64,000 nucleotides of DNA, taken from NCBI GenBank assembly GCA_019454045.1, contig SKCR01007813.1, forward strand, positions 62,001 through 126,000, written 5' to 3'. Positions 21,005 to 47,161 of the stretch are shown here, one piece after another (positions within the stretch are counted from its first letter, which is position 1; each line of letters begins with the position of its first letter). Source of the stretch: Zanthoxylum bungeanum. Taxonomy: Eukaryota > Streptophyta > Magnoliopsida > Sapindales > Rutaceae. A program made the position numbers and the translations under genes. The notes under the pieces are model-generated. The model did not search any database. It had not been told where the DNA came from and was given only the letters and a program-made list of their open reading frames with translations.

Positions 21005-21302
21005 TGAAGCGTCCAGCAGAAGAAATTTTCATACTTTCTTTCCGGATTCCTTTATAGATTTTGGAGAGAGAGTGTCTTGTGTGTTTATTTATTTAAAGCT
21101 TTTTGTAATGTTTTTTTCTTTCAGTAATAAAATTACGAGTATGTTTAATTACAAAATGAGTAGCTAATTTCTTTTCGTTGGGGTAATGGGTGAAGCTTTT
21201 ATAATGAAAACTTTGATCAATCTCCCGTACATTATAATAAATAAATTGTAATCTAATGATTAAAACTTGATTTAGATCTAGATTAATTATTGACAATATT
21301 TG

Positions 21303-21570: not shown

Positions 21571-21883
21571 TGGCATAATTAATTCATGAGATAAATTAAT
21601 TGGGTAACAAAGACAATTTATATATTATAATTAAGCGAGATTTCTAGATTTGAAATTTTAAAAGTGGATCCCCAACTCCAGGATTTCATTTTGTTACTAC
21701 ATTTTCACTTAAAAATTTCCAACAAATCCAACATATCAAATCATTTTCTGTTCAGTCTACTTATCATTCTATTTTACTAAATCTATTCCATGTGGATCGA
21801 CCTTGGACTTACCGGGTTATTTTATTACTTCGATACTCTTATACTTGGGAGTAAAAGATCACTTTTTGAGCGTGTCAAGTTTT

Positions 21884-23520: not shown

Positions 23521-24184
23521 ACCTCGCAAAGCTGAGAATAAAACAGATTCAGAGGGTAAGGAAGAGGTTGATGAACCATTACCCATCGTTGATAACAATA
23601 ACTTGTCACATACACCTCCATTCCCTCAAGCATTAAAAACAAAGAAATTGAACCATTCCCCAGAAATTTATGAAATATTCAAACAAGTAAAGGTCAATAT
23701 TCCTTTATTAGATGCCATCCAACAAATATCATCTTATGCCAAATTTCTGAAAGATCTGTGCACCATTAAAAGAAAACATCAGGTAAGAAAGAAAGCTTTT
23801 CTAGCTGAACAGGTAAGTTTCATTCTTTCAACCAATAATACATTAAAATACAAAGACACTGGTTGTCCAACTATTTCTTGCATTATTGGAAATCAAAACA
23901 TTGAACATGCTTTGCTTGATCTTAGAGCTAGTGTAAATTTACTTCCATTTTCGGTTTACCAACAACTTAATATATGTGAGATGAAACCAACCTCAACTAC
24001 TCTTTTACTTGCCGATAGATCAGTTAAAATACCAAAAGGAATTGTGGAAGATGTGTTATTGCAAATCGATAAATTCATATATCCTGTGGATTTTATTATT
24101 TTAGTAACACAACTTGTGGCATACAGTTATAATCCAATCTCTGTAATACTTGGTCGTCCATTTTTAGCAACAGTTAACGCTTAA
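23521..24184 (+). pseudogene. PR: C: retroviral-type aspartic protease
   Basis: An open frame from about 23603 for 193 codons. The linker FPQALKTKKLNHSPEIYEIFK leads into the protease, with EHALLDLRASVNLLPFSVY as the active-site region: the catalytic Asp is kept, but the usual DLG has become DLR. LLLADRSVKIPKGIVEDVL and ISVILGRPFLATVNA close the fold and fit the Athila protease. The frame ends at 24182-24184 in TAA, where related proteins continue. Confidence 0.85.
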
Positions 24185-25500: not shown

Positions 25501-26335
25501 TATTTTATAGGAGGTTCATTAAAAACTTTAGTACCATATCCAGACCCTTATGTAACCTCCAATTAAAAGATGCAACATTTGAATGGACAGATGAATGTCA
25601 AAAATCATTCGAAACAATTATCAGTATTTTGACTTCTGCTCCTATTATGCAATCTCATGATTGGTCATTGCCTTTTGAGTTAATGTGTGATGCTAGTGAT
25701 TATGCAATTGGTGCAGTACTAAGACAGAGAAATGAAGGTAAGTCGCATGTAATATATTACGCAAATAGAACTTTAAATAGTGCACAAATGAATTACACTA
25801 CCACAGAAAAAGAACTACTTGCTGTAATATTTGCAGTGGATAAATTTCGATCATATTTAATCGATTCTTCAACCGTTGTTTACTCTGATCATGCTGCTGT
25901 TAGATATTTGATGTGTAAACAAAATGCCAAGCCAAAATTAATACGGTGGATTTTGTTGCTTCAAGAATTCAATCTCACAATCAAAGATAAGAAATGGGCA
26001 GTGAACGTGGTTGCAGATCACTTATCGAGACTCATAAACGAGTCACTAATTGATACCACTCCCATCAATGATTCTTTTCCCGATGAATTTTTATTCTTTG
26101 TAAACATAATGCCTTGGTATGCTAATATTGTCAATTTTCTTGCAACATGAAATATACCTCCATACTGGAGCCAACAAGATAGGACGACATTTTTGACCGA
26201 AGTCAAAAGATTCTACTAGGATGATCCATATCTGTTTAAATGCTACCCGGATTAGATTTTCAGAAGATGCATACTGGACAGTGAGATAAGTGGTGTTATT
26301 CAGTTTTGTCATTCAGAAGCATGTGTATGTCATTT
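25501..26335 (+). pseudogene. RH: C: gypsy RNase H, cut by solo LTR D
   Basis: Open at 25629-26150: ELMCDASDYAIGAVLRQRNEG (first catalytic Asp), VIYYANRTLNSAQMNYTTTE, KELLAVIFAVDKFRSYL (Glu), TVVYSDHAAVRYLM (Asp) and NVVADHLSRL. The tail past 26150 is in broken frames and runs to the first integrase residues (CHFG...) at 26335, where D inserted (TSD CATTT, 26331-26335). Confidence 0.92.
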
Positions 26336-28857: not shown

Positions 28858-29567
28858 CATTTTTCATCTAAGAAAACCGCTGCAAAAATCTTGTAGTGTG
28901 GATTTTATTGGCCCACCATTTTTAAAGATACACACTTTCTGCAAAACTTGCGAAAACTGTCAAAAGTTGGGATCCATTTCAAAAAGAAACATGATGTCTT
29001 TAAATCCCATCATTGTCGTTAAAATCTTTGATTGTTGGGGGATAGATTTCATGGGCCCATTTCCACCATCATTTCGATTTTTATATATTTTAGTTGCAGT
29101 CGATTATGTCTCAAAATGGGTCGAGGTAATTCTTTGTCGGAACAATGATCACACAACTGTGATCAAATTTTTAAAGAAAACATGTTAAGTCGATTTGGAA
29201 TTCCTCGGGCCATCATAAGTGATGAAGGTAAACACTTTTGTAATAGACCATTTGTGTCCTTAATGAAAAAGTATGGAGTCACACACAAAGTTTCCACCTC
29301 CTGTCGCCCCCAGACAAACAGACAAGTTGAATTAGCGAATATGGAAATTAAGCAAATTTTAGAAAAAATGGATAATCCAAATCACAAAGATTGGTCCCTT
29401 CGACTAACTGATGCACTCTGATCATATCGAACAGCTTTCAAAACATCTTGGGAATGTCCCCCTATCGTCTAGTTTATGGAAAACCTTGTCATTTGCCTGT
29501 AGAACTTGAGCATAAAGCATTTTGGGCTATTAAAGCATTCAATTCAAACCTTGAAAATGTTGGTCAT
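28858..29567 (+). pseudogene. IN: C: integrase, first part
   Basis: Resumes after D. The HHCC zinc finger is represented by [17 protein letters not shown], with its His part left of D. The core has [10 protein letters not shown] (first Asp), [23 protein letters not shown] (second Asp) and QTNRQVELANMEIKQIL (Glu). Stops or shifts occur near 29190 and 29420. After [27 protein letters not shown] the gene is cut at 29567 by E (TSD GTCAT 29563-29567) and resumes at 42934. Confidence 0.92.
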
Positions 29568-30139
29568 TGTGGGAACACAGAAAACTGGGCGACACATGTT
29601 GTTCTAGGCTCGCGGCCTAGTTGGGAGTACGGAGTAGCCACGGGGGACTAAACCGGAGAAAATAATGGAGTCGCCACCCGATGTGAACCGGGGGAAAATG
29701 AGATTTAAGGCCGCACTCACCCCTCGCATGGAAGACCTCAAACTGTTGGGTTCAGAATGGTCCCTTACTTATGTCACTTCTAATGAAAGGATTTGTGCAA
29801 TAATTTAATCAAGCTTAAGTAACACTTATTTCCAAGAGTATCATGCTTCTAAGTTCTCATGCATACATCAACAAGTTCATCTAAATTTACATGAAACACA
29901 TATCCGAATTTGCATACAGCCTATTTGCATGTAATTTATGTCTCAATTTGCATACATAAGATTAACATACGTCAAGCATACAAGTTAATAAACACATTAT
30001 ACTCATACATGTGGGGAATACAGATGAACGACACCTACACAATCTTGCATATGCATAGAAAAACAATCAGGTTCATCATACGAAGGAATAACTACTAGAG
30101 ACAATTATGTACGAAATCTGATGAAAATAACTCAGCTCA

Positions 30140-30500
30140 GGGGGTCGGGCGTTCGTGCGTAGCGTTCGAGAATGCGTTTGAACGGTAAACAGAAGGTTCG
30201 CGTTCGTATAGCGTTCGAGAACGCGTTCGAACGGAGCCAGACCTGATGCATGAAACACTAAGAAGATGCGTGCGCGTTCACATAGCGTTTGATAACGCAT
30301 TCGAACAGTAAACAGAAGGTTCACGTTCATGTGGCGTTCGGGAACGCGTTCGAACGGAACCAGACCTGATGCATAAAACACTAAGAAAATGCATGTGCGT
30401 TCGCGTAGCGTTCGAGGACGCGTTCGAACGGTAAACAGAAGGTTCACGTTCGTGTGGCGTTCGAGAACACGTTCGAACGGAACCAGACCTGATGCATTCA
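30140..30500. repeat. 123-bp tandem units of TTCGAACG palindromes
   Basis: Three units, each ending GAACGGARCCAGACCTGATG (about 30230, 30354, 30477) and each made of two half-units built round GCGTTCGAGAACGCGTTCGAACG. Matching arrays: 40715-41065 in the other E LTR, and two-unit versions at 48690-48910 and 55575-55795 in F. The repeated ORFs here (FERVLERHTNVNLLFTVRT) are produced by the repeat. Confidence 0.88.
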
Positions 30501-30539
30501 ACACATTCCTAGACAAACAAATCCACAATGTGGGACCTC

Positions 30540-31215
30540 ACGTATTTGATTGAACTCATCTCACATCCAATCGAATATACACCAACCGGCGCGGCAAAAC
30601 ATCATGGTAAAGGATTTTAACCCCTCCAAATAGGGGACCTTTAATCCGACTAACTAAGCCATGCGGTCGATCGTGTCATGCATACAAAAATAAAGACAAT
30701 GACATCAAACTTAGTATGCCCGATTGAACATATCTTACATCCAATGGAACACACATCAACCGGCGCGGCCAAAACATCGTGGTAAATGATTTTAACCCCT
30801 CTAAAATATGGGACCTTTAATCCGACTTACTAAGCCCATGCACTCGATTACGTCATGCATACAAAAATAAAGACAATGACATCAAACTTAGTATGCCCGA
30901 TTGAACATATCTTACATCCAATCGAACACACATCAACTGGCGCGGCAAAGCATCGTGGTAAAGGATTTTAACCCCTCCAAATAGGGGACCTTTAATCCGA
31001 CTTACTAAGCCCATGCACTCGATTGCGTCATGCATACAAAAATAAGACAACGACATCAAACTTAGTATGCCCGATTGAACATATCTTACATCCAATCGAA
31101 CACACATCAACCGGCGCGGCAAATCATCGTGGTAAAAGATTTTAACCCCTCCAAATAGTGGACCTTTAATCCGACTTACTAAGCCCATGCACTCAATTAC
31201 GTCATGCATAAACAA
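30540..31215. repeat. About 175-bp tandem repeat, four units
   Basis: Units contain CATCAACCGGCGCGGC at about 30582, 30757, 30931 and 31106, then CATCGTGGTAAAGGATTTTA and TAATCCGACTTACTAAGCCC. Spacing is 174-176 bases. Confidence 0.9.
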
Positions 31216-31640
31216 GTAACATGCGGAATTCAAATGACGAAAAATAAATAAATCAAAGCAACATAAAACAAAGAAGGTGCCGTTTACTCAAGCGGTACGT
31301 GGAGTTGTATCCCAAGTACAGATCATACTACCGTCCATTCGGAATCGGGTATGAAATTTATGTTCGGGTTTCCATCCGATATACCGCGAGAGTTGACACA
31401 TCTTTTATTTTATTCCAACTCCACAACATACAATATTTCATGATACATGCATATTTATCTACTCAAGGGCCACAACATGCATTTTGACATAACAATCATG
31501 CGAACAATGCTCAATGAATAAAAAAAATAAAACAGAAAACGAATGTGGAAAATACCCTCAGGTCTAACTTTTTTGCCAACTTTCGGACTTGCGTGAGAAT
31601 TATGTGTATGAGCTAGGGGAGTCATGTCTTGGTGAGGGTT

Positions 31641-31649
31641 GTTTATATA
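31641..31649 (-). promoter_or_regulatory. TATA box of the E 3' LTR
   Basis: Minus strand TATATAAAC in TCTCTATATAAACAACCC. The equivalent sites are 42363-42371 in the E 5' LTR, 50280-50288 and 57153-57161 in F, all unchanged. Confidence 0.7.
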
Positions 31650-32237
31650 GAGAATGACTAGGGCTACTCTTGTCTCACAAGAAGGGATTTGATTTTGTGT
31701 TGAGCAAGGAAAGTCAAAGATTGAGGGGGACAAATTTGGTTTAGATTAGGAAGTCAATATCTTTAAATTGGTTATGAGTGATTTAATTAGGCATGACATC
31801 TTTTTAATTTAGTATCTGATTTTGCTTAGTTAGGAAGTTAATATATTTGATTTATCTAAATTAGGTATGATTATATTTTATGTTTTATTTAATTGGTAAA
31901 TGGTTTAATTATTTTATCTAATTCAATGTTTAATTTAATTAATATTTGATTTAATTTGGGTGTAATTTAAGGGCCTAGCAGCAAAACCAGAAATACCGAC
32001 ACCGTTCGAACGCCTCTTAGAACGCTGCACGAACGTCCGCAATCTATTTGACGTTCGAACGTGGTAACGAACGCAGCACGAACGAAAATAGTGAACTTGA
32101 GAAATGAACTTGATGACATACTTATTTCGAATTTCCCCTTCCGACGTCCGTTTAACGCAATATCCTTAACTAAAAAAGTAGTACCTCCAACTGAGACTCA
32201 TCATCGGGTTTCACATGCAAAAATGCAATGCCTACAG

Positions 32238-32251
32238 TCGCCCCCACTTTG
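32238..32251 (-). promoter_or_regulatory. Polypurine tract of element E
   Basis: Minus strand AAAGTGGGGGCGAC directly before the 3' LTR start TGTAGGCA. F has the same tract at 50869-50882. Confidence 0.9.
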
Positions 32252-33008
32252 ATGGGACTGGTGCAGTGTGTGACTTTGAACAATCCTATCAAAGTTATGC
32301 AACACATTTTTACTTACCTGGCTCGTCTGCTGCCTCGAGCTGAGTTGGTGCTGCAGTGGACCTCGATCATGGGACGCATCCCAATAACTGCAACCGACAA
32401 TGGGGGCACCTCGACCCTGGGACGCATCCCGGAACTGCAATTGTCAACAGGGGTACCTCGACCTTGGGACTCATCCCAAAATGCTGACGACAACAAGGGC
32501 ACCTCGACCCCCAACACCGCTGACAATAGGGACCTCGCCGTCGAACTGATGATGTAGTGGGCACCTCGATCTAGGCACTTCGACCCGTAACTACAACTGA
32601 TGATGCAGTGTGCCCTCGACCCTGGGACGCATCCAGGAACTGCAACTGTCAACAGAGGTACCTCGACCTTAGGACGCATCCCAAAACTGCTGACGATGTG
32701 GGCCTCGCCCTCAAGCTGATATGGGCCTCGCCCCCAAGCTGACATGGGCCTCGCCCCCAAGCCGATATGGGCCTCGCCCCCAAGCTGACATGGGCCTCGC
32801 CCCCTGGGACTCATCCCTAAGACTGAAACTGCGCTGACGTTGTTTGGCTTATTTCTGCCGCTTTCTCTTTTCTTTGAACCTGCGAACACAAAACCAAGAA
32901 CAAACACGAAGAGAATGCAATGTTACGTGTATGCATGAATGATTTTTCTTATCACGTTGGGTTAGGACTTCTGCCCATTTCCTTGGTGACTGCTCAGTCT
33001 TTTCTTCC
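32252..33008 (-). repeat. E 3' untranslated region with short tandem arrays
   Basis: Between integrase and PPT. From about 32380 to 32700 imperfect blocks of roughly 60-65 bases repeat ACCTCGACCYTGGGAC and GCATCCC...AACTGCAA. From about 32695 to 32810 a 23-base unit (GCTGAYATGGGCCTCGCCCC + CAA) is repeated about four times. Read on the sense (minus) strand the unit carries GGGGGCGAGG, resembling the PPT core GGGGGCGA. Apparent ORFs across the array are repeat by-products. 32830-33008 shows nothing further. Confidence 0.8.
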
Positions 33009-34363
33009 TCAGGCAAAGTATTGTTTCAATTTGTCCACATTGATCGGCTCGGTGAACTCGTTTCCTTCCAAGTCTGATAGCCTCACTGCTCCATTTCCCA
33101 TTACCTTCTGCACTATGTAAGGTCCTTCCCAGTTAGGTCTGAATTTTCCTCTCGGATCTGTCATCGACGGCCTTGACTGCTTAAGTACCAAATCACCCTT
33201 TCTGATCTTGGTGGGACGTACTTTCCTGTTGAATGCCCGGGCTAGTCTCTTCTGATACAACTGCATGCGATACAAAGACTTTGTTCTCCTCTCATCCAGC
33301 AGTGCTAACTGATCAAACCTCCGTGCGGCCCACTCCTGTTTCGGTAATTCTGCCTCTACTAATACCCTCATGGACTGTATTTCCACTTCTACTGGCAATA
33401 CTGCTTCCATTTCGTAGACCAAAGAGTAAGGTGTGGCCCATGTTGCTGTTCTTACTGATGTTTGTACCCCCACAAAGCATACGGTAATTTCTCGGCCCAA
33501 TCTCTGTAATTTTCTATCATCTTGGCTAAAATCGTCTTTATAGTCTTGTTGGCTGCCTCAACTGCCCCATTTGCCTGCGGCCTGTACGGTGATGACTTGT
33601 GGTGGCCTATCCCGTACCTCTGTAACATTGCCTTCGTCTCTCCTTGAAACTGAACTCTGTTGTCTGTCACTACATGATGCGGCATACCATACCGACAAAT
33701 GAGGTTCCGAGCTATAAACTTTGCCATCTGTTTTGCTGTAACATTGTGGAATGATTCGGTTTCCACCCACTTCGAGAAGTAATATACGGCCACTACTATG
33801 AAGCGATGCCCATTCGATGCATTCGGTCGAACTTCTCCAATCATATCAATTCCCCATGCTGAGAAAGGCCACGGCTCTGACAACCCGTGTAACTCTGTGT
33901 GCGGTAAATGATTCAAATTATCGTGTGCTTGACAGTCATGACAGTGCTTTACCATCTTCACACAGTCTGTTTCCATGGTTGACCAATAAAAACCTTGTCT
34001 CACTATCTTGCGGGACAGATTCAACCCGTTCATGTGCGGACCACAAACCCCGGCGTGTATTTCTTCCATTACATGCTGAGCTTCTTCTTTTCTCAAACAC
34101 TTCAACTGAATACCGTTTGCTTGCCTTTTGTACAGTTCCCCTTTCAAAGTCACATATTGGGAAGCTAATTTCTGAATGGCTATTCTGTCTTTTCTGCCTG
34201 CCCCTTCCGGGAGTTCACCATGTTCCAGATACCTCTGAATGTCATAATACCAAGGTTTACCGTCGTCGACCTCAACTTCCAGAATTCTTTCTATCTCATA
34301 AACAGGTCTGCTTGCTGTTGTCAGTATCAACGGTCTCATCACTACTTTTCTGGATTTTCCCAA
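33009..34363 (-). pseudogene. IN: E: Tat-type integrase
   Basis: The first piece, 34363-33452, has WYYDIQRYLEHGELPEG, then the HHCC finger (HAGVCGPHMNGLNLSRK, with CVKMVKHCHDCQAH), WGIDMIGEVRPN (Asp), VVAVYYFSKWVETES, HHVVTDNRVQFQGE (Asp; usual TDNG has changed) and QANGAVEAANKTIKTIL (Glu). A frameshift near 33480 leads to the second piece (33500-33009), with SLVYEMEAVLPVEVEI, a basic C-terminal domain (KVRPTKIRKGDLVL) and FRPNWEGPYIV, ending NVDKLKQYFA. Length is normal apart from the one shift. Confidence 0.93.
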
Positions 34364-34800
34364 GTTGCTGCAAGTGTAGCCAATGCATCTGCCATTGATT
34401 CTCTTCTCTCGGTAAGTGCTGAAACTTACACTCGGGGATAACCTGTGCCAACTTTCTGAGGTGAAAAAGGTAAGGTTTCAATCGTTCTTCTTTCAATTCC
34501 CATTCTCCTCGCATCTGCTGGACTACCAACATAGAATCTCCGTAGACTTCCACATCCCGGCCTTCAAGGCTATCAATGCTGTCAAACCGAAAGCACATGC
34601 TTCATACTCGGCCATGTTATAGTCACTCTGAATGTCAACCTCTTGGCTAAAGGCAAAGTCTCTCCCTCAGGGGTCACTATCACGATCCCAATTCCGGCTC
34701 CCTTGTAATTCACTGCTCCGTCAAAATACATCTTCCATCTCTGAACTGTTATTGCTTGGATCTCTTCGTCTGGAAATTCAAACTTATATTGATCCCCCTC
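34296..34800 (-). pseudogene. aRNH: E: second (archaeal-type) RNase H
   Basis: After EEIQAITVQRW the motif KMYFDGAVNYKGAGIGIVIV appears (about 34740-34680), holding the first catalytic Asp; VTPEGETLPLAKRLTF follows. The next segment is in a shifted frame: VEVYGDSMLVVQQMRGEWEL (Asp) and YLFHLRKLAQVIPECKFQHL. A second, archaeal-like RNase H behind the gypsy one is a known hallmark of Tat-lineage elements. At least one frameshift near 34600 breaks it. Confidence 0.88.
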
Positions 34801-35358
34801 AACAGGTTGCAATGCCAGAAACTCTGCTACTGCTCGCCCTTTGATCACTTTGGAGGTGAGATACTCAATGTCAAACTCTGTCAGCAATACCAACCATCTG
34901 CCCAATTTTCCCACTAGTGAAGGCACCGAATGAAGATATTTCAGAGGATTTTCCTTTGCCACTACCTGGATCTTGTAAGACTGGAAATAATATCGCAACT
35001 TTCTGGAAGCCCATACCACGGCAAGACAGATCTTCTCTACTTCTTGATACCGATCCTCATACGGGAGCATTTTCTTACTCATATATTAGACTGCATGTTC
35101 TAACCCTGTCTCATCTGCCTGTACCATCATTGCCCCCAGTGCTTCTGATTCTATAGCCAAATACAATATCAAAGGTCTGCCCGGTCTCGGAGGTTTCAAT
35201 ATAGGAGGCTTTACCAAGTACTCTCTGATTTTGTCGAAGGCTGTCTGACACTGTTCATTCCATCTCACTGGCTGATCTTTTCTCAACAGTTTGAAGATAG
35301 GCTCACATACTGATGTCAACTTGGCGATGAACCGACTGATGTACTGAATCTTCCCCAA
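34801..35358 (-). pseudogene. RH: E: gypsy RNase H
   Basis: KIQYISRFIAKLTSVCEPIF (connection), PLILYLAIESEALGAMMVQA, a stop at 35086-35088, then MSKKMLPYEDRYQEVEKICL, AVVWASRKLRYYFQSYKIQV and IKGRAVAEFLA. The first acidic position reads YLAIE, so the usual Asp is not evident; this reduced gypsy RNase H next to a second RNase H is in line with what is known of Tat elements. Same frame across the single stop. Confidence 0.85.
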
Positions 35359-35370
35359 GAACGCTCTGAC

Positions 35371-36497
35371 CTATTTTTCTGTCTTCGGTGCAGGCATTTT
35401 TGTGATTGCCTTGATCTTCTCAGAATCTACCTCTATTCCGCCCATTCCCACTCTATGACCAAGCAATTTCCCTGATGTCACCCCAAACACACATTTCTTG
35501 GGATTAAGCCGCATGTTGTATCTGTCAACTCTCTGAAGGAACCTTTCCAGTGCTTCAATCTGCCCAACTCTTGTCTCTGATTTCACCATCATGTCATCCA
35601 CATACACCTCAATCTCTCTGTGCATCAAGTCGTGGAAAAGTGTAGTGGCCATCCGCTGATAAGTAGCTCCCGCATTCTTAAGCCCAAACGACATTACCTT
35701 GTAACAGTAAGTACCCCACTCGGTAACAAATGCAGGCTTGCGTTTGTCTTCCTCAGCCATGAGAACCTGATTGTAACCTGAAAACCCATCTGCAAATGAA
35801 TACATAGCAGATAAAGCCGCACTATCAACCAGAACATCTATATGCGGCAGAGGAAAATCATCTTTCGGACAAGCCTTGTTGAGATCTTTGTAGTCTACAC
35901 ACATTCTGACCTTCCCGTCTTTCTTTGGCACCGGCACTATATTAGCCAACCACTCAGGATACTTCACTACTTCCAGGAACCCCACATCTATCTATTTCTT
36001 AACTTCCTCTCTGACTTTCTCAGCCTATTCTGGTCTCATCCGTCAGAGTTTCTATTTTACTGGCCTTGGTTCAGATAAGTTGGTATTGTGTGCTGGGCAA
36101 TGTTTCTGTCTACCCCAGGCATGTCCTCATAGGACCAAGCAAACAATTTGGCATATCTGACCAACACTTCTTCTAGTTTCTCCCTCTCTTCGGAGGTAAC
36201 TTCACTTGTAATCAGAATTTCCTTGGGACTCTCAGGTGTACCAAGGTTAAATGCAGTAGTTCTGGCCGAACTGATATCAAATATGCTTAATTCGTGCAGA
36301 GTAAATGGAAATGACTCAGACAAGTAAGCAAAAGAGATGTCTTTATTATTGGATAATGCATGAGTACATTCAAACAAATCGGGAAGGTAAATGTCTTCAT
36401 CATCTATAGGCATTTCTTCCTCTGTAACCAGGTTTTCCTTAGGCTTTTTGTTCTCTCCCAGAGTCAGGCTCTCCAACTTCATCAGTTCTTCCTCCAA
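35371..36497 (-). pseudogene. RT: E: RT lead-in and reverse transcriptase
   Basis: The lead-in (36497-36057) contains IYLPDLFECTHALSNNKDI and VLVRYAKLFAWSYEDMPGVD. Between 36056 and 35990 several stops replace codons in the segment leading to KVREEVKK. RT (35985-35371): IVPVPKKDGKVRMCVDYKDL, NKACPKDDFPLPHIDVLVD, SFADGFSGYNQV (Asp), WGTYCYKVMSFGLKNAGATY, EVYVDDMMVKS (YVDD intact) and LNPKKCVFGVTSGKLLGHRV. It ends at a stop after MPAPKTEK, where related proteins continue into the connection region. Confidence 0.93.
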
Positions 36498-36674
36498 TTC
36501 TCTTCTTCTTTCTTCACAATTTCTTCAACTATCGGCTTCTTACCCACATATCCTGGAAGATCTCAAACCCAGGTACCACAATCCCATTAACTTCTACAGG
36601 TTCAGGCTCCCCTTGATATCCTGAAGCTTGCACAAAACATTCCATCAGTTTCAGGCTTTTTTCTTGACCTTCGG

Positions 36675-37577
36675 CTATTCTTCATCAGACTTGTACCCCA
36701 AACCCTTCCGAGTAGTATGTCCTCTGAAATCTGCCAATTTTGAACCTTCACCCGGCTCAAACTTCATTTTTTTCATGATCCTAGCCAACCTAGGATCCAC
36801 CCACTCCTCAAAAGTAGCTGACACCTGAAACCTCGTGAAAGGTTGTATCTCTAAGGCGGCCACGACATTATCTATCTCAGCCCAGACAGTAACAACTTCA
36901 TACGGGAACTTGATCATCCGATGTAAAGTGGAAGGCACACCCCCAAGTTTGTGAAACCAAGGCCTTCCCAACAATAAGGCGAAAGTAGCCTGGATGTCCA
37001 GTACTGTGAACTCAACCTCATCTTCAATCGGGCCTGCCTTGACCATAGCCACAAAAGTACCCTCAACTCCCCTTTTGCTGTCATCATAAGCCTTAATAGT
37101 CATGCTGGAGGGGTCCAAGTCTGTTGCTTTCATACCTAATCTTGCCAGAATTTTCAGCGGGCACACATTGATGGACGAACCATCATCCACCATCACACAT
37201 GAAGTTATCTTGCCCCTCACCTCGGCCCTGATAAATAGAGGCCTATTATGATTTCTTCCTTCCGCCGGGAGTTCATCCTCAGAAAAAGATATCTGCAAAG
37301 CTTCTTTCTGAACTGACCCAACAAACATTGCAGAGTTAGCGTCTCCCGGTACCACAATCTTGCTCAAGGCCTCAACCATGGCCTGCCTATGCTCCCGAGA
37401 CGCACATAACAGTTCCCAGATACTCACTTGTGCTATAGTCTTCCTCAATTTCCTCAGTACTATATCCTCATCAGTATTTTCTGCAGTCTCAACCACTTCT
37501 CTGCCATCTGTCAAAACTTCCTTACCCTTTTCTGCCATATCATTGTAAAAATGACTGCTGCGCGTCATTCCCCTCAC
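36675..37577 (-). pseudogene. PR: E: Tat-type aspartic protease
   Basis: About 300 open codons. KTIAQVSIWELLCASREHRQ and EALSKIVVP precede the protease. The active-site region is SCVMVDDGSSINVCPLKIL, where DDGS occupies the place of the canonical D-T/S-G. VEFTVLDIQATFALLLGRPW, then HKLGGVPSTLHRMIKFPYE, closes the domain. It is in a different frame from gag, so a shift lies between 37904 and 37577. Downstream, 36675-36500 has stops. Confidence 0.9.
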
Positions 37578-38959
37578 TTCTTCCTCATTACTGCTAGAGA
37601 AATCAAGCGAAAAGTTTTTCCCCTACTCAGTCTCATCTTCACTAGTACTATCCCAGATTCCCAGGCAAAAGGCTTGAGGGTGAAAGGATTTTAGGACAAG
37701 GTCTTTTGGGAGGCCATAATTGATCATATAGGTTGGTGGTGGTACGGAACGGTAGTTGGGTAATGAGTTTCTGTGTGTGTCAGGCTGTTCTGTTTCTGGG
37801 TCAGGTATTTTCTTGGAGTCTATCAGGTCTTGGATTTCATGGCGGAGTTGGGCGCAGTTGTCGGTGTCATGGCCCTTCTGTTGGTGAAAGTGACAGTAAA
37901 AGCTTAGGTTATAATGTGATGGTGGGGGATTGGGTAATGGTTGGCTTCCAAGGGTTTTAAGAGCCCTTGCCTCTTCAATTTCTCTAGCATATTTGACAGG
38001 GGTCTTCCCAAGTTGGAAAATCTCCGGTTCCGGATAGCGGCAATCTCAGCAGAAACGGGCTTTGTTCCCGATGTTCCCCCAATGGGCCTCCTATTCAGAC
38101 AATAGAATTTTCTATTCTCGGCCTCTTCTTCCTCAATATCCATGACAGTTTCCCTCAACTGCCGAAAGTCTGTAATCATGGAGGTCATTCTCCTCAACTT
38201 GCTGTAAATGGAGGGCTTAGTGCCCTTGATAATCATTTTAATCTGGTCATTCTCTGAGGGCCTAGTCTGTATTTTCAACAACTGACCTCTCCATCGGTCT
38301 ACATACTCCTTAAAACTCTCCTCCGATTTTTGCTTAACATTCTCCAGATCGCGGAGTGACAGATCGATCTCTAGGTCAGTGACATACTGCTTCAGGAAGG
38401 CGTCAGCCAACTCCCTCCAATCTTCCTTCACGTTTTTCTCCAAACTGTGGTACCACACCATGGGAGCTCCCTCGAGCGACATTCCAAACATCTTCTGCAC
38501 TTGGCGCTGAGACAGGCCAACTGAACTCATGACTGATACAAACTATCGGAGATGCACCATTGGATCCCCATTCCCGTTAAACTTAGCCATATCAGACATC
38601 TTGAACTGTGCCGGCAACTGTTCCTCGAAAGTCAGTGTGTCATAATCCAGCAAATCTTCATTCTTACCCCTCATCTTGCGGGTAACTGACTCAACCTGAT
38701 CCCGAAGTTTCTGTAACTCTGCCTGAGACCCATATACTCTGCCTGCTGCATACTCTGCCATATCATCATCAAAAGTGGGGATATCATCCCCCAACCCATT
38801 CGGAGGCTCCTCACGCCTCACATTCTCAGAATTTCCCCCAGCACGGGGCACAGCCATACCAGCCACATCAGTAGTCAATGCTTGCAACTGTTCAGTAATC
38901 TTGGCGAGACCTTTCTCTAACTGATCCATATGGGATACCTCATTACCGGATTCACTCAT
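37578..38959 (-). pseudogene. gag: E: gag, one nonsense codon
   Basis: The start MSESGNEVSHMDQLEKGL at 38959 is chosen by comparison with the F gag, which begins MSTSDNEVSRIDQLENGF. DIPTFDDDMAEYAAGRVYGS, EEQLPAQFKMSDMAKFNGNG, then VHLR-stop at 38543-38545, where F reads Gln. The frame reopens without a shift: FGMSLEGAPMVWYHSLEKNV, LADAFLKQYVTDLEIDLSLR, SFKEYVDRWRGQLLKIQTRP, FSNLGRPLSNMLEKLKRQGL. Region 37904-37578 contains a Cys/His-type remnant (HFHQQKGHDTDNC) and the linker to protease, with a stop and a shift. Gag would form the virus-like particle. Confidence 0.92.
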
Positions 38960-40118
38960 GACTATTACTGTTCTTTTAATGAGCCTTGTTCCTTCTCTAA
39001 CCCAAACGGTATCTATGATGTCTTTTTGAGACATAGATGATGTTAACATGATATATGTATGTATGAGGTGCATGAGATGCATGTAACATATATAACATAC
39101 TAAATTAATTAAAATTTTCAAACAAATCGGCCCGTTATCATTTTAGAAGCTTTTGGGCTAACTGTCATAGGAGTGAACTCGTCCCAGTTTAAATGGCCCA
39201 ACAAGTTCACATCTCATGGCAATGAGCCCAACTAAATCCAAATGGTAATGTTCCGAACACAAGCACGAAGTGGCCCATCAATCACTTAGAAGCCTTTGTC
39301 CCAATCGTCATAAAATACGTTCTTGTCCCAGTTTAAATGGCCCAACAAGCCCATATCCCATGACAAATGGTCCAAATGGATCCAAACGACGATGTTCCCA
39401 AACACAAGCATAAAATAAAGATAATGCAAACATAAAACAATGATTTCTACAGAATGGCCCATCAACATTTCAGAAGCTTTCGGCCTAATGGTCATAAGGT
39501 ATGAACTCGCCCCAGTTTAAATGGCCCAGCAAGTTTGCATTTCTGACAATAGTCTAACTGCATCCAAATGAGGATGGTCCATAAGCACATATTCAAGGAA
39601 ATAATGGTTACTTTAACCATACAAACCCAGTCTATGGGTGGGTTCGCAAGAGTGTAGACAAAGACTCTCACCGGCGACGGATGGCCCACAACTAGGTCTC
39701 CCCAATCAAGGGTTTGAGCGACCAAGTGAGTGCACCCTTTTTTTATACACTAAGGTACGTGCCAATGAGCTATGGTGTGTGACTGACTGTCAAATGGATT
39801 TCCTGTTGTAGATTCCCCAGAGGGAGGGTGGAGCGAGGCTCTCTTAAGTACCCTACCCTCTTAGGCTCTTATCTCTTGGTGACAGGAATAAACAACGAGC
39901 CCTCCAAATTAGTCCATCACAATAGGCTACCAGTAGATGGCCATATAGATGCCTTCACAGCTTTTCCTTCTAGGAAGGTAGTGAATGAAAAAAGACACCA
40001 AACCATTACCTAGCCTTAAAATGCCCTTGATTAAACCCCCATTTTATCCATTATAGACACGGTCAATTAGAACATAAATCCAAACATTACAAGACAATAT
40101 TTCGGGGCCGATTCTCTA
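38960..40118 (-). other. Element E leader with three related repeat blocks
   Basis: 5' UTR between PBS and gag. A block centred on GTCCCAGTTTAAATGGCCCA occurs at 39181, 39325 and 39509 (plus-strand coordinates, spacings 144 and 184), each about 17-20 bases after a GTCATA. The F leader has the same three at 54041, 54184 and 54368. 39600-40118 shows no gene. Confidence 0.8.
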
Positions 40119-40138
40119 TCCCCAGTGGAGTCGGCAAA
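40119..40138 (-). promoter_or_regulatory. PBS of element E
   Basis: Minus strand TTTGCCGACTCCACTGGGGA, one base from the LTR. F has the undamaged form TCTGGCGACTCCACTGGGGA. This motif class is familiar from Tat-type elements; I do not assign the tRNA. Confidence 0.8.
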
Positions 40139-40139
40139 C

Positions 40140-42928
40140 TGTGGGAACACAGAAACTGGGCGACGCATGCTGTTATAGGCTCGCGGCCTAGTTGGGAGTA
40201 TGAAGTAGCCACGAGGGACTAAACCGGAGAAATAATGGAGTCGCCACCCGGTGTGAACCGAGAAAATGAGATTTAAGGCCGCACTCACCCCTCGCAAGGG
40301 AAGACCTCAAACCGTTGGGTTCGGAATGGTCCCTTACTTATGTCACTTGTAATGAAAGGATTTGTGCAATAATTTAATCAAGCTTAAGTAACACTTATTT
40401 CCAAGAGTATCATGCTTCTAAGTTCTCATGCATACATCAACAAGTTCATCTAAATTTACATGTAACACATATCCGAATTTGCATACAGCCTATTTGCATG
40501 TAATCTATGTCTCAATTTGCATACATAAAGATTAACATACGTCAAGCATACAAGTTAATAAACACATTATACTCATACATGTGGGGAATACAGACGAACG
40601 ACACCTACACAATCTTGCATAATGCATAGAAACAATCAGGTTCACCATACGAAGGAATAGCTACTAGGGACAATTATGTACGAAATCTGATGAAAATAAC
40701 TCAGCTCAGGGGGTGCGCGTTCGCGTAGCGTTCGAGAATGCGTTCAAACGGTAAACAGAAGGTTCGCGTTCGTATATCGTTCGAGAACGCGTTCGAACGG
40801 AGGCAGACCTGATGCATGAAACACTAAGAAGATGCGTACGCGTTCGCATAACGTTTGATAACGCGTTCGAACGGTAAACAGAAGGTTCACGTTCATGTGG
40901 AGTTCGGGAACGCGTTCAAACGGAACCAGACCTGATGCATAAAACACTAAGAAAATGCGTGTGCGTTCGCGTAGCGTTCGAGGACGCGTTCGAATGGTAA
41001 ACAAAAGGTTCATGTTCATGTGGCGTTCGAGAACACGTTTGAACGGAACCAGACCTGATGCATTCAACACATTCCTAGACAAACAAATCCACAATGTGGG
41101 ACCTCACGTATCTGATTGAACTCATCTCACATCCAATCGAATATACACCAACCGGCGCGGCAAAGCATCGTGGTAAATGATTTTAACCCCTCCAAATAGG
41201 GGACCTTTAATCCGACTTACTAAGCCCATACGCTCGATCGCGTCATGCATACAAAAATAAAGACAATGACATCAAACTTAGTATACCCGATTGAACATAT
41301 CTTACATCCAATCGAACACACATCAACCGGCGCGGCAAAGCATCGTGGTAAAGGATTTTAACCCCTCCAAAATAGGGGACCTTTAATCCGACTTACTAAG
41401 CCCATGCACTCGATTGCGTCATGCATACAAAAATAAAGACAATGACATCAAACTTAGTATGCCCGATTGAACATATCTTACATCCAATCGAACACACATC
41501 AACCGGCGTGGCAAAGCATCGTGATAAAGGATTTTAACCCCTCCAAATAGGGGACCTTTAATCCGACTTATTAAGCCCATGCACTCGATTGCGTCATGCA
41601 TCAAACTTAGTATGCCTGATTGAACATATGTTACATCCAATCGAACACACATCAACCGGCACGGAAAAGCATCGTGGTAAAGGATTTTAACCCCTCCAAA
41701 TAGGGGACCTTTAATCCGACTTACTAAGCCCATGCACTCGATTGCGTCATGCATACAAAAATAAAGACAACGACATCAAACTTAGTATGCCCGATTGAAC
41801 ATATCTTACATCCAATCGAACACACATCAACCGGCGCGGCAAAGCATCGTGGTAAAGGATTTTAACCCCTCAAAATAGGGGACCTTTAATCCGACTTACT
41901 AAGCCCATGCACTCGATTGCATCATGCATAAACAAGTAACATGCGGAATTCAAATGACGAAAAATAAATAAATCAAAGCAACATAAAACAAAGAAGGTGC
42001 CGTTTACTCAAGCGGTACGTGGAGTTGTATCCCAAGTACAGATCATACTACCGTCCATTCGGAATCGGCTATGAAATTTATGTCCGGGTTTCCATCCGAT
42101 ATACCGCGAGAGTTGACATATCTTTTATTTTATTCCAAGTCCACAACATACAATATTTCATGATACATGCATATTTATCTACTCAAGGGCCACAACATGC
42201 ATTTTGACATAACAATCATGCGAACAATGCTCAATGAATAATAAAAATAAAATTGAAAACGAATGTGGAAAATACCCTCAGGTCTAACCTTTTTTGCCGA
42301 CTTTCGTACTTGCGTGAGAATTATGTGTATGAGCTAGGGGAGTCATGTCTTGGTGAAGGGTTGTTTATATAGAGAATGGCTAAGGCTACTCCTTGTCTCA
42401 CAAGGAAGGGATTTGATTTTATGTTGAGCAAGGAAAGTCAAAGATTGAGGGGGACAAATTTGGTTTAGATTAGGAATTGAATATCTTTAAATTGGTTATG
42501 AGTGATTTAATTAGGCATGACATCTTTTTAATTTAGTATCTGATTTTGCTTAGTTAGAAAGTTAATATATTTGATTTATCTAAATTAGGTATGATTATAT
42601 TTTATGTTTTATTTAATTGGTAAATGGTTTAATTATTTTATCTATTCAATGTTTAATTTAATTAATATTTGATTTAATTTGGGTGTAATTTAAGGGCCTA
42701 GCAGCAAAACCAGAAATACCAACACCGTTCGAACGCCTCTTGACGTTCGAACGTGGTAACGAACGCAGCACGAACGAAAATAGTGAACTTGAGAAATGAA
42801 CTTAACGACATACTTATTCAGAATTTCCCCTTCCGACGTCCGTTTCCCGCAATATCCTTAACTAAAAAGGTAGTGCCTCCAACTGAGACTCATCATCGAG
42901 TTTCACATGCAAAAATGCAATGCCTACA
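40140..42928 (-). repeat. Element E 5' LTR
   Basis: 2789 bp, matching 29568-32237 with few changes. Its main length difference is one additional 175-bp unit (five units, 41110-41930, one of them shortened by about 20 bases). The TTCGAACG array is at 40715-41065. A 30-base deletion relative to the other LTR lies at about 42739. Confidence 0.92.
41110..41930. repeat. About 175-bp tandem repeat, five units
   Basis: CAACCGGCGCGGC-type cores near 41148, 41319, 41497, 41652 and 41826. Spacings are about 171-178, with one of about 155 where a stretch containing ATACAAAAATAAAG is missing (near 41600). Confidence 0.9.
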
Positions 42929-43240
42929 GTCATGAACGTAAATTGTAACTAAATGAACTTGAAGAGTTAATGAATGATTCATATGAGAACACGAAAATTC
43001 TTAAAGCTAAAACTAAGGCCTTTCATGATAGTCGGATTTCACAAAAAATATTTGATGTTGGTCAAAAGATTTTTCTTTATAATTCTCGTCTTCATTTATT
43101 TCCTGGAAAATTAAAATCCAAATGGAATGCCCATTCATTGTGAAACACTTTTACCCATACGGGGCTGTTGATATTGAGAATCCTAGGGATGGTGATGTAT
43201 TTAAAGTAAATGGACAGCGTCTGAAACATTTTTTGGAGTA
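42929..43240 (+). pseudogene. IN: C: integrase, C-terminal part
   Basis: Starts with the TSD GTCAT and continues the integrase cut at 29567: [59 protein letters not shown] frameshift near 43135 follows, then KHFYPYGAVDIENPRDGDVF and KVNGQRLKHFLE ending at TAA 43238-43240. This is the usual end of an Athila-type pol, so all that follows up to the LTR is extra. Confidence 0.92.
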
Positions 43241-43466
43241 ATCAAAATTTCAAGAAACCTTTTTCCTGTCAAATCCAGTATACCTTGATTTATGTCATTT
43301 TATTTTATTTTATGTTTAATATTGCTCTAATTTCCATTTTTCTTAGTTTTGCAGCATTTTTGTTTTTTTTATCTCACACCCTGGTAAAGCTGCGGATAAC
43401 GATACTCCGTGACTCAAAGTCGGTTATTTCAGTCTCCTAAAATTACTGATACCCTACAAACCAAAG
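43241..43466 (+). promoter_or_regulatory. Spacer after pol with a possible splice acceptor
   Basis: Non-coding, T-rich. It ends a pyrimidine-rich run with TTAGTTTTGCAG at about 43344-43355, a good plant 3' splice-site shape, about 110 bases ahead of the next ORF. In Athila elements the third gene is thought to be expressed from spliced RNA, so this could be its acceptor; inference only. Confidence 0.35.
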
Positions 43467-43925
43467 CATGGAAGAAACTCTCTCAAACCTCTATAAACAT
43501 TTCCATTCTCTTCCCCAAAATGCTCTGACAAAAATTTACAAAGAACACACATAAATGATGAGGCTTCTTATGATTCATGGTATTCCTAGTGATATCCGAT
43601 GGGTAATTGAAGCAAAAGTTCGCTTGGCAGGTGAGTCATCTGACACTTTCATTTCCTACATGTCTGGTTTAGGGAAAAACACCTATTCTAAAAAACGAAG
43701 AGCTAATCAATTAGGTGTTTGTTATAAGTGTGCATGATGTACGTGCAACACTCGTTGTCGTTCTTTAGGAATGGTGTCTGATAATCGCGAAGATAAAATT
43801 CTTAGGGATGACTTGAGTAAGGAGTCTTTATATGATATATCATTGACTCTTGAGATGCATCCTAGTGGATATGTTCATCGAGAGATTCGCAAGTTAAATA
43901 CACAATTTCAAAAAGAAAAAAAATA
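43467..43925 (+). pseudogene. C: accessory ORF with Cys cluster, function unknown
   Basis: Starting at the ATG at 43467 (MEETLSNLYKHFHSLPQNAL) one frame runs 153 codons to TAA at 43923, broken by TAA at about 43551 and TGA at about 43734. Notable is a cysteine-rich region GVCYKCA-stop-CTCNTRC (C-x2-C-x2-C-x-C-x3-C if the stop is a changed codon), preceded by a Lys/Arg stretch (KKRRANQLG) and followed by SLGMVSDNREDKIL and LTLEMHPSGYVHREIRKLN. After the stop another frame reads KRIRLPIYKKVGWEAYPRPI up to about 44077, probably the same protein after a frameshift. The position is that of the third (env-like) gene of Athila elements, but I see no transmembrane segment. It resembles a small nucleic-acid-binding protein; no family recognised. 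Confidence 0.55.
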
Positions 43926-44077
43926 ATACAGTCTCGGGAATCTGACTTTAAAAGAATCCGTTTGCCAATTTATAAGAAAGTTGGATGGGAAGCCTATCCC
44001 CGACCCATAGAGGGTGTTTAGGCCGTTATTGGACGTAAAACCAGAGGAAGATATGAGCCACAATCACAACTATCGGT

Positions 44078-44185
44078 ATATATTTTTAAATTATTGCTTT
44101 GATTTCCTATTTTGATTCACTTTTTGCCGACGGTATCTAACCTTTTTGTTCACGATCTATTTTCCTAATAATTGTCATTTTGCAG
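44078..44185 (+). other. Possible intron between the accessory ORF and the LOG copy
   Basis: Begins GTATATAT after CTATCG and ends in TCATTTTGCAG; the body is AT/T-rich with no ORF. It has the shape of a short plant intron. Unproven. Confidence 0.35.
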
Positions 44186-44281
44186 GTATTAGTGCATTTA
44201 TTACTCACCCTTTTCAGGATTTATAAATTCAGCTCGCCAATTCTCTCTCTTCAACACATCTAGCTAAGAGAGATAACACAA

Positions 44282-44932
44282 ATGAAGACAACTTCAAAAC
44301 GATGATTCACTAATATCTGTGTGTTTTGTGGAACTAGCTCCAGAACTAAACCAGAATTTGTTGAGGCTGCGAGAGAATTGGTAGAGTTATGGCAAACAGA
44401 AACATGCACTTAGTATATGGCGGTGGAAATCTTGGATTAATGAGGTGTATTTCAAAAGTTGTACAAGAAGGTGGCAGTCAAGTTTTGGGGATCATTCCAA
44501 AACCCTTAACAGAGGACAACATCATCGGAAAATCAAACGGAGAAGAATGTATTGTCCCAGGTATGTCTGAAAGACTCACTGAAATGATCAATCATGCTGA
44601 TGCTTTCATTGCTTTACCAGGTAGACTAGGAACGTTGGAAGAAATATTCATAGTTGTGTCATGGGCAAACTTGAATATTCACCAAAAACCCATTGGGCTA
44701 TTTAATGTTAACGGATTTTTCGATTTTATTTTTGTATTTCTTGAAGATGCCAAAAAACGGGTTTATTTCAAAACCGGTAAGAGATATCTTCCTAACTGCA
44801 AGAAAAGCTGATGATTTAATTGACCAACTCTTAGCTTATGAACCAAGAATAAACCCTATTCTTTCCAAATTGAACTGGTCTGGTAACAATCATGTCAAAA
44901 AGCGCAAAGTAAACCTGGACCTTAATCTCTAA
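44282..44932 (+). pseudogene. LOG-like: C: captured LOG-family gene (cytokinin riboside 5'-monophosphate phosphoribohydrolase), intronless and broken
   Basis: LOG enzymes release active cytokinin bases from their nucleotide 5'-monophosphates in the cytosol. ATG at 44282 (MKTTSKR), TGA at 44303-44305, then in the same frame FTNICVFCGTSSRTKPEFVE (the N-terminal VFCGSS block). A frameshift at about 44388 leads to NMHLVYGGGNLGLMRCISKV, GSQVLGIIPKPLTEDNIIGK, ADAFIALPGRLGTLEEIFIV and NIHQKPIGLFNVNGFFDFIF; a second shift near 44755 to KNGFISKPVRDIFLTARKAD, ILSKLNWSG and a basic tail VKKRKVNLDLNL, stop TAA 44930-44932. The diagnostic PGGxGTxxE box reads PGRLGTLEE, and the MxxRK box reads MSERL. The whole family length is covered without introns, although plant LOG genes normally have several, so this is a processed copy. 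It is on the same strand as C and inside its LTRs. Confidence 0.9.
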
Positions 44933-46042
44933 TCTTTAGTTGTAATTGTCAATTCCACAATAACCAGATGATATCTTATAAACTCTACTTATCTTTTTTT
45001 AAAAAAATGGGGACAATATCTCATTGTGGTTGGGGGGAGGGGATAATTTACTAGGTAATTTTCATATTCTATTGATGTTTTTATTCAAAAAAAAAATTGT
45101 GTTTTTACTTTGTTGTTATTTTGTGTGTAAGAATATATATCGATATATATACACACAAACTAACAACAAATTTGTTTTCTAAAACAAGTGGAATTGTTGT
45201 TCAGAGGTGGCTGTGTAAGGAGTTTTCACTCTTGAGACGCATCTCAATATAATTTGTAACAAGTTATTTATTGTTTCTTTCTTTTTGAATCATTTAAATT
45301 TGTCAATTCTCCATAACATTGATTAAATTTGATCTTTATATGCTCATCTGACAGATATTATCAATAACATGGTAACATATGATCATGGGTGGTAAGTGAA
45401 AATTCTGTAATATTCAGTTCTATAGTCTGTTGGAGGTAACACCTAAAGGTAGTGCAATTTATATATATCTTTATTTATTAAAAAAAAAAAGAGTTTGAAT
45501 AAGTTCGTTTATGTAGCCTTTTTAACTCGAGCAATTAAGTCTGTATGAGTGTCTTAACACTTAGTACCCTAAGGCCAACTGGTCTGGGAATTACTGGCCC
45601 AAAGCTCGTTACAAGGGTTAAAAAGAAAGCTTAAGGGAATCAGACACTTTTTATCTGAGATCCGAACAATTAAGTCTATAGGGGTGTCTTAACACCTAGT
45701 GCCCTAAAACTAACTAGTTTGAGAGTCACTGGCCCAAAGTTCGATACATGAATTGAAGATATGTTTATAAAAAAAACTTTCACTGCCAAAATATGTAAAC
45801 TCTAACATAATTTTAGGACAAAAACATTACTCTTTTTTCAACAAATACATGTGATATTGTGGGCACAATATATTGATTAATACCTTGTTTTGAGAGTATA
45901 TGGAAGAATGGTAAAAAGTACAGGAGAAGTCATTTATTTGATCACTTAGAAAGAAAGAAAATAATTGTTGACTTAGATAAGAATTTTTCTTTTAGATTCC
46001 GCTTGAATTTCTAGGGACTAGTAATAAGCTGGTTGTGGGGTG
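44933..46042 (+). other. C 3' untranslated region
   Basis: No gene. GGGGACAATAT at 45009 followed by GTGGTTGGGGGGAGGGGA (45025-45042) is a G-rich tract characteristic of the region behind pol in Athila-type elements. A direct repeat of about 85 bases (CAATTAAGTCTRTA...GTGTCTTAACAC...ACTGGCCCAAAG) occurs at about 45532 and 45667, period 135. The purine-rich GGTTGTGGGGTG (46031-46042) just before the LTR is the likely PPT. Confidence 0.7.
46031..46042 (+). promoter_or_regulatory. Probable polypurine tract of element C
   Basis: GGTTGTGGGGTG abutting the LTR start TGATGAATAC. It is interrupted by pyrimidines, so possibly mutated. Confidence 0.6.
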
Positions 46043-47161
46043 TGATGAATACTAAAAAGTACATATTTATTATACGATAAGTCAATTATTTTACACTTGT
46101 AATTTCACTAATCCCCTTAAATTGACACATTTGTGAAATAATATTTTAAGTTATGTTTTGAGTATTTTTATTGTGTTATTTTATGTTATTTGATAAGAAA
46201 AAGACACCACAGATCGCGCTATTCTCTTAACACATGTCGCCATCGTGGCACTCGTGTCGCGACGTGCGACCAAATTTTGCCTACAAATTGAAGCATCAAG
46301 CAGAATAAATTTTCATACTTTCTTTCCGGATTCCTCTATAGATTTTGAAGAGAGAGTGTCTTGTGTGTTTATTTATTTAAAGCTTTTGTAATGTCTTTTT
46401 CTTTCAGTAATAAAATTACGAGTATGTATAATTACAAAATGAGTAGCTAATTTCTTTTCGCTGGGGTAATGGGTGAAGCTTTTATAATAAAAACTTAGAT
46501 CAATCTTGCATACATTATAATAAATAAATTGTAATTTAATGATTAAAACTTGATTTAGATCAAGATTAATTATTAACAATATTTGCTACCGCCTATATGG
46601 CTGGTTTTATCTTGCTACCACCTATATGGCTGGTTTTATCCTGCTATCGCCTATATGGTTGGTTTCATCTTGTTACCACCTATATGGATGGTTTTATACG
46701 ATTTTGGCATAATTGAGTACCTTGGTAGGACTTGTTATAGACAAACGGTATCACCGCCTATATGGATAGTTTTATGTTTTTGGCATACTTACTACCTTGG
46801 CAGGACTAGTTATTGACAGAAATGACCACCGCCTTTATGACTGGTTCTATATATTGGCATAATTAATTCCTGAGATAAATTAATTAGATAACAAGGAAAT
46901 TTTATATATTATAATTAAGCGGGATTTCTAGATTTGAAATATTAAAAGTGGACCCCCAACTCCAGCATTTCATTTTATTACTACATTTTCACTTAAAAAT
47001 TTCCAACAAATCCAACATATCAAACCATTTTTTGTTCACTCTACTTATCATTCTATTTTACTAAATTTATTCCCTGTGGATCGACCTCGGACTTACATGG
47101 TTATTTTATTACTTCGACACTCTTATACTTGGGAGTAAAAGACCACTTTTTGAGCATGTCA
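46043..47161 (+). repeat. Element C 3' LTR
   Basis: 1119 bp, TGATGAATACTAAAAAGTAC ... GAGCATGTCA. It lacks about 125 bp found at 20795-20920 in the 5' LTR and has TACAAAT in place of the TATA box (about 46282). Four 29-bp repeats start near 46587. Confidence 0.92.

Follow-up and report, generated by a model that had tools for sequence, protein, structure and literature searches.

The question raised by the 64,000-nucleotide stretch of the Zanthoxylum bungeanum genome analysed here (hereafter, the window) is why a gene of the LOG family, which belongs to a plant hormone pathway, lies inside a long terminal repeat (LTR) retrotransposon, element C, and whether it is a mere passenger there. The original prediction, made from the sequence alone, explained this arrangement as the capture of a host LOG mRNA by an ancestor of this one element. 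Our results shift the reading towards a high-copy family in which LOG is an old accessory gene kept by selection, accompanied by a second, virus-like gene.

In the window, an intronless LOG-family frame extends in sense from an ATG to a terminal stop between the integrase and the 3' LTR. It is preceded by a leader (44186-44281) that begins right after a splice-acceptor-like TTTTGCAG at 44178-44185. It is the second of two accessory open reading frames (ORFs), of which the first lies within the ~1 kb separating the integrase from LOG:

43468..44010, + strand: accessory ORF 1, carlavirus-type cysteine-rich nucleic-acid-binding protein (CRP), broken (PF01623, 22.3 bits, cut-off 20.9)
44282..44932, + strand: accessory ORF 2, gene for a LOG-family phosphoribohydrolase; this copy is dead, with one stop, two frameshifts and PGR in place of PGG

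The Pfam domain Lysine_decarbox (PF03641) matched the middle of the LOG frame (44365-44808; 3.6e-28, 98.8 bits), and Arabidopsis At2g37210 (LOG3, structure 2a33) matched the frame at 1e-36. A chance ORF is ruled out by the Pfam match. These results bear out the predicted intronless, sense LOG frame in the env/ORF3 position, and dispose of the possibility, raised with it, that the ORF lies outside the LOG family. Reading the frame also recovered the predicted stop, early and in frame, and both shifts; because of these and of PGR in place of PGG, the window copy is dead. The predicted location between integrase and 3' LTR stands, but LOG does not follow the integrase directly, since the CRP ORF, which the prediction lacked along with the selection signal described below, intervenes. 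Two altered boxes were likewise read correctly and are to be understood differently. PGR is present in the window copy, and at this position copy L046 shares GR with it, but it is not the family form, as LPGGLGTLEE is exact in 26 of the 39 other copies (longest frame of each). The R-L box is present but is not a decayed R-K box, a possibility ruled out by its clade-wide occurrence: among the best 120 of 7746 protein matches, which form our clade set, we counted RL in 49, RI in 20, RM in 19 and RK in 14, the remainder being other or unparsed. The observation is thus confirmed, and its interpretation is partly supported.

We searched the source genome (3.96 Gb, 51,709 contigs) at the DNA level with positions 44280-44940 and scored 40 of 8436 candidates, namely the window itself and 39 other places at 92-95% identity. 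Because the 40 places were chosen by LOG, the weight of evidence lies on their flanks; the sample favours copies with LOG and cannot give the share of the family without it. The CRP region aligned over at least 70% of its length in 39/40 copies and the integrase end in 38/40, while two pol pieces aligned in 36/40 and the downstream noncoding stretch only in 27/40. A private pseudogene insertion, which the original prediction had named as the outcome that would overturn it, is ruled out by these 39 other places, most of which have element genes beside LOG. The 217-aa frame from ATG to stop is open in seven copies (L009, L010, L017, L023, L026, L033 and L035), and the open L017 frame matches PF03641 at 2.2e-36 as well as the Pfam family LDcluster4 (SLOG). 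The LTRs of L017 (1362 bp) are 97.8% identical and are flanked by the target-site duplication (TSD) TCAGT, the middle of this element being unread; the LTR pair of L042 is 99.05% identical over its readable part, and the 5' LTR of L035 could not be located in the LTR comparison. These identities indicate that some family members moved recently. The results support the view that LOG resides in a high-copy Ty3/gypsy family as an accessory gene and was not inserted once.

To evaluate selection, we mapped substitutions on trees of the 40 copies and expressed the ratio of nonsynonymous to synonymous changes (N/S) relative to the neutral expectation from the noncoding spectrum. The main tree was built without LOG and CRP, and a second tree was built from all pieces. 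Raw codon-position counts were uninformative, with no clear bias even in pol, and a test split by branches was therefore made. On the main tree, the N/S of LOG was 0.47 of neutral on inner branches (N = 91, S = 66, P = 8.6e-6) and 0.85 on end branches (P = 0.14); the all-piece tree gave 0.44 and 0.97, with P < 1e-5 for inner branches on both trees. CRP yielded 0.57 on inner (P = 5.7e-4) and 1.06 on end branches of the main tree, and three pol pieces yielded 0.60, 0.49 and 0.43 on inner and 1.10, 0.85 and 0.77 (the last with P = 0.039) on end branches. As controls on inner branches, shifted frames of LOG gave 1.00 and 0.78, neither significant; those of CRP gave 0.75 (P = 0.08) and 1.52, the latter in the opposite direction (P = 0.02). 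None of the noncoding values was significant, whether from upstream (1.01, 0.69 and 0.74) or downstream (1.03-1.10) sequence. The first frame of the upstream noncoding control was low on end branches (0.78, P = 0.05; 0.77, P = 0.04 on the other tree), and single P values near 0.05 therefore mean little here. The odds of inner versus end branches were 0.56 for LOG (P = 0.0035), 0.54 for CRP (P = 0.0015), and 1.29 and 1.00 for noncoding sequence. These results show that LOG is under purifying selection on inner branches, about as strong as that on pol, and is near neutral on end branches. LOG and CRP evolve like pol, constrained during propagation of the element and free afterwards.

The accessory ORF upstream of LOG resembles, by Pfam, the nucleic-acid-binding proteins of carlaviruses. 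It is open in some other copies, with a 182-aa frame in L017. Besides the window fragment, two open frames exceeded the Carla_C4 (PF01623) cut-off with 24.2 (L017) and 24.3 bits; a fourth frame fell below it with 20.6 bits, and a 46-residue piece from L029 had no Pfam match. Viral_NABP (PF05515; cut-off 23) scored 14.4-24.5 bits on these frames. A protein search returned 444 relatives, and the 120 listed, among them proteins of Xanthoceras, Populus, Acer, Rhamnella and Orobanche, all carry PF01623 by precomputed annotation. When 46 relatives were aligned, Carla_C4 was found in 42 and Viral_NABP in 41 at E < 0.01 (best values 1.5e-8 and 1.1e-8), and the family has a basic block and a Cys cluster; PDB sequences gave no match to the CRP profile. 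The source genome holds at least 150 CRP copies at 85-98% identity, and at least seven contigs, counted by eye (C32605, C17150, C27069, C43688, C16012, C10146 and C29532), are shared by the CRP list and the 40 LOG matches, with the two genes ~0.3 kb apart. According to the accessible part of PMC12172455, the cysteine-rich proteins of carlaviruses and allexiviruses are silencing suppressors, one of which is also a transcription factor inducing hyperplasia.

We then considered where the element LOG came from. We ran a 36-residue LOG query against the source genome and scored 150 of 37,045 candidates. Twelve of these rows, 93-100% identical, cover residues 10/11 to 36 only, as expected at an exon border, and two at 72% span all 36 residues, perhaps representing a different type of LOG. 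The remaining 136, at 53-64%, run unbroken and were taken as element-type by identity and open frame, 43 of them lying in frames of at least 217 aa. L051, the only host LOG gene read, has several exons over the LOG domain, in agreement with the contrast that the original prediction drew between intron-bearing host genes and the intronless copy. Compared with the L051 exons, the LOG of P0001, a close relative of the element LOG, is 38-57% identical (27%, not significant, for the last short piece). Given an intronless copy, a split host gene and this level of identity, the element LOG most likely derived from a spliced host LOG mRNA, and not recently. The low identity, together with a deep clade having members in Populus, Xanthoceras, Paulownia and Reevesia, points to a probably ancient capture; a recent uptake by an ancestor of element C, the lineage named in the original prediction, is not supported.

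This clade was compared with a canonical set, the best 120 of 7993 matches to LOG3 and LOG8 stretches. The tree comprised 164 rows: 105 of the first 120 (selected by length), 58 from every second of the second 120 (under a length limit), and the L017 LOG; the first set was labelled element-type by similarity. The two sets part with an SH-aLRT of 100 and a long branch, and the four genera just named are represented among the matches listed. P0001 is 98% identical to the L007 LOG frame and has no relative in IMG/VR. Its AlphaFold2 (AF2) model is confident (pLDDT 86) and has the predicted Rossmann-like fold of LOG, at a root-mean-square deviation of 1.0 Å from 2a33. PGGxGTxEE occurs in 105/120 listed clade members. 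For the active site, we used the positions of CgLOG given in the accessible part of PMC4979012, where Arg99 and Glu122 are catalytic and Met96, His97, Lys100, Glu125 and Trp129 form the prenyl-group site; 113 rows were parsed in each set, and 7 in each were unparsed. All eight positions are intact in 113/113 canonical LOG1/3/8-type proteins. In the clade, Arg99 is kept in 103, Glu122 in 111, Glu121 in 112, Trp129 in 112 and Met96 in 99, whereas Lys100 is kept in 14, His97 in 34 and Glu125 in 13. The hydrolase core is mostly kept and the base pocket is changed, and neither the window's family nor most of the clade has the complete prenyl-group site of a cytokinin-activating LOG. Because His97, Lys100 and Glu125 are changed, cytokinin nucleotides may not be the substrate; cytokinin activation is plausible, though weakened by the difference at three of the five pocket residues. 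At the C terminus, LxLxL, defined as an EAR repression motif in the review PMC9956375 (accessible part), occurs in 83/120 listed clade members and 0/120 canonical proteins, and the combination of a basic stretch with LxLxL in 80/120 and 0/120. Residues 203-217 of this tail are predicted to be disordered in the P0001 model.

Branch points and TTTTGCAG-type sequences are features of plant 3' splice sites, and candidates precede both accessory ORFs:

43325..43354, + strand: branch-point and splice-acceptor-like sequence before the CRP ORF (loose pattern in 33/40 copies)
44160..44185, + strand: CTAAT...TTTTGCAG splice-acceptor-like sequence ~100 nt before the LOG ATG (loose pattern in 30/40 copies)

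To judge from these patterns, CRP and LOG are probably translated from subgenomic RNAs produced by splicing. For barley Bagy2, spliced expression is reported in the accessible part of PMC7264820.

Element C itself was delimited by self-comparison of the window, by its reading frames and by comparison with L017:

20652..47161, + strand: element C, Athila-like Ty3/gypsy LTR retrotransposon split by later insertions (LTR ends by homology to L017)
20652..21877, + strand: 5' LTR (comparison with L017)
21880-21901, + strand: sequence TTTTTGACGCCGTTGTCGGGGA, like a primer-binding site (PBS), after the 5' LTR (read in sequence)
22151..26147, + strand: decayed frames of gag, protease (PR) region, reverse transcriptase (RT) and RNase H (RH) (Pfam Retrotrans_gag, RVT_1, RT_RNaseH)
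28763..29562, + strand: integrase (INT) core, N-terminal side of the nested insertion (Pfam rve)
29568..42928, - strand: later nested gypsy element (TSD GTCAT; LTR repeats 92.8-93.8% identical; integrase domain)
42949..43240, + strand: C-terminal part of the integrase (matches the end of the L017 pol frame)
45009..45039, + strand: G-rich sequence GGGGACAAT...GGTTGGGGGGAG, also written GGGGACAAT...GGGGGGAG (read directly)
46043..47161, + strand: 3' LTR (comparison with L017)

The five-base TSD ACGAA was read directly at 20647-20651 and 47162-47166, the LTRs are 93.3% identical over 971 columns, and a G-rich polypurine-like stretch ends at 46042, directly before the 3' LTR. With its LTRs, TSD, PBS-like site and gag-PR-RT-RH-INT order, the element has the structure of Ty3/gypsy; its PBS is presumably of the Athila type. 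Pfam rve is under its curated cut-off in both pieces of the integrase core at 28763-29562, the C-terminal part at 42949-43240 alone has no Pfam match, and neither has the protease frame. No extra RNase H was noticed between RH and INT in the L017 frames, where no dedicated search was made. The G-rich sequence at 45009-45039 lies 3' of LOG, 1 kb before the LTR. The nested minus-strand element has ~2.7-kb LTRs with 123-bp and ~175-bp tandem repeats, and a relative of it is found at 48112-57739, with an LTR pair (48112-50868 and 54997-57739, 95.8% identical) around a minus-strand gag frame. A further insertion of ~2.5 kb, with approximate limits of 26340-28870 taken from the frames, lies inside the N-terminal part of the element C integrase. 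Two copia-type elements (3968-8213 and 11449-15729) are in opposite orientation and 85.7% identical.

Taken as a whole, the explanation that we consider likely is that LOG is an old resident accessory gene of a high-copy Athila-like family and has, with CRP, a host-permissive role. The spliced mRNA of a LOG gene would have entered an ancestral element, probably in the distant past, and the family would since have carried LOG and CRP between the integrase and the 3' LTR, the site of an env-like gene in some other Athila elements. Spliced subgenomic RNAs would probably serve as templates for both accessory proteins. LOG would most likely cut ribose-phosphate off a nucleotide 5'-monophosphate, either releasing active cytokinin or handling a related nucleotide, and, given its basic tail, may act in or near the nucleus; with CRP, it could render the host cell more permissive for transposition, that is, dividing and less silenced. 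Several observations weigh against this account. The complete LOG frame is absent from 33/40 copies (the window and 32 others), and LOG shows 8 stop changes even on inner branches, implying that changes were misplaced by parsimony or that some of these branches connect dead lineages. The window's family keeps Met96 and Trp129 and has replaced His97, Lys100 and Glu125, and in the sub-clade around it (23 rows, 21 parsed) the catalytic Arg99 is retained in 14 members and replaced by Gln in 7. CRP bears a modest likeness to carlavirus proteins, scoring 14-26 bits in the rows shown, and was poorly modelled by AF2 (pLDDT 56). The acceptor-like counts of 33/40 and 30/40 come without a chance expectation, and no splice donor was identified. 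The Athila-like assignment is our judgement from layout and PBS type rather than from an RT tree, and relatives in other plants would be element-borne to judge from copy counts and a single sentence of the accessible part of PMC9289625.

Alternatively, LOG could be a processed pseudogene, captured once, unused and spread passively with the element, as the many incomplete frames and the near-neutral N/S of end branches would allow; however, inner-branch N/S is 0.44-0.47, whereas on these branches no shifted-frame or noncoding control fell significantly below 1, the whole frame persists in 7/40 copies, 43 of the 136 element-type rows are in open frames of 217 aa or more, and many relatives across plant families keep the 217-aa length, the catalytic residues and the tail. 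We find this explanation highly improbable. That the clade consists of divergent ordinary host LOG genes, one of which an element took recently, is suggested by some Populus relatives named LOGL10 genes by NCBI, but 14 host-exon-like rows, of which 12 are interrupted at one exon border, stand against 136 unbroken element-type rows, and no close intron-bearing parent was found among the 150 scored of 37,045 candidates, in which host genes could hide; this too seems improbable. A more serious competitor, although still unlikely in our judgement, is an active accessory LOG that does not activate cytokinin and acts on a different nucleotide, perhaps removing a nucleotide-derived defence signal. 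SLOG-type domains bind nucleotide signals in bacteria, and both the LDcluster4 (SLOG) match and the loss of Lys100, His97 and Glu125 in most of the clade, all intact in the canonical proteins, point this way, as against the mostly kept Met96, Trp129 and catalytic pair; the R-K box, kept in 14/120 clade members, was also counted against it. Returning to the resident accessory gene, we hold its boldest form only tentatively: a two-gene host-control module older than the split of several eudicot families, in which a virus-type zinc-finger protein and a re-shaped LOG with a nuclear EAR-like tail would be expressed by splicing and selected for opening the host to transposition.

If true, such a module would represent the manipulation of hormone or nucleotide signals by a transposable element. 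Captured host genes in transposable elements are often deemed passengers; here, a hormone-pathway LOG behaves like a core element gene, with constraint that is present during propagation and gone after insertion. Should the enzyme prove active, retrotransposons of plants could adjust cytokinin or nucleotide signals in those cells in which they transpose, and the LOG genes annotated in plant genomes would have to be divided into host and element genes. The carlavirus-type CRP leads one to ask whether RNA viruses and retrotransposons exchange genes.

That gypsy elements of plants can carry LOG is not in itself new, since a YgdH (LOG) domain is reported in the accessible part of PMC9289625 for LTR retrotransposon consensuses of Citrus sinensis and C. 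clementina and, under a looser filter, of Populus trichocarpa, in agreement with Steinbauerova et al. (2011), credited there. Those elements, like the present one, have a LOG-type domain within Gypsy-type LTR elements; as far as that part of the paper goes, they are given as domain counts, without analysis of position, selection, residues, tail or partner gene, and no carlavirus-type gene is named. Our literature search, with most subscription papers outside it, found among the papers listed no report of carlavirus-type genes in retrotransposons or of selection, pocket or tail changes in element-borne LOG. New here are the inner-branch selection on LOG, the selected carlavirus-like partner ORF, and the distinct LOG clade with its altered pocket and its frequent basic, LxLxL-type tail. 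With canonical plant LOG1/3/8, the element LOG has in common the fold, PGGxGTxxE and the catalytic Arg and Glu, but it is intronless and forms a separate clade with a changed prenyl pocket and, often, a basic, LxLxL-containing tail. CRP shares the basic block, the Cys cluster and Pfam Carla_C4 and Viral_NABP with the carlavirus and allexivirus proteins; unlike them, it is retrotransposon-borne and has further conserved N- and C-terminal parts. Ty3/gypsy elements of orchids likewise acquired an enzyme domain, of the m6A demethylase type (PMC9289625, accessible part); there, enzyme, plants and partner differ. Position, sense orientation and possible spliced expression are common to the accessory ORFs of element C and to the env-like or extra ORFs that Athila and further plant elements have between pol and 3' LTR, as described in the accessible part of PMC7264820; what element C encodes there is an enzyme and a virus-type zinc-finger protein instead of a membrane protein.
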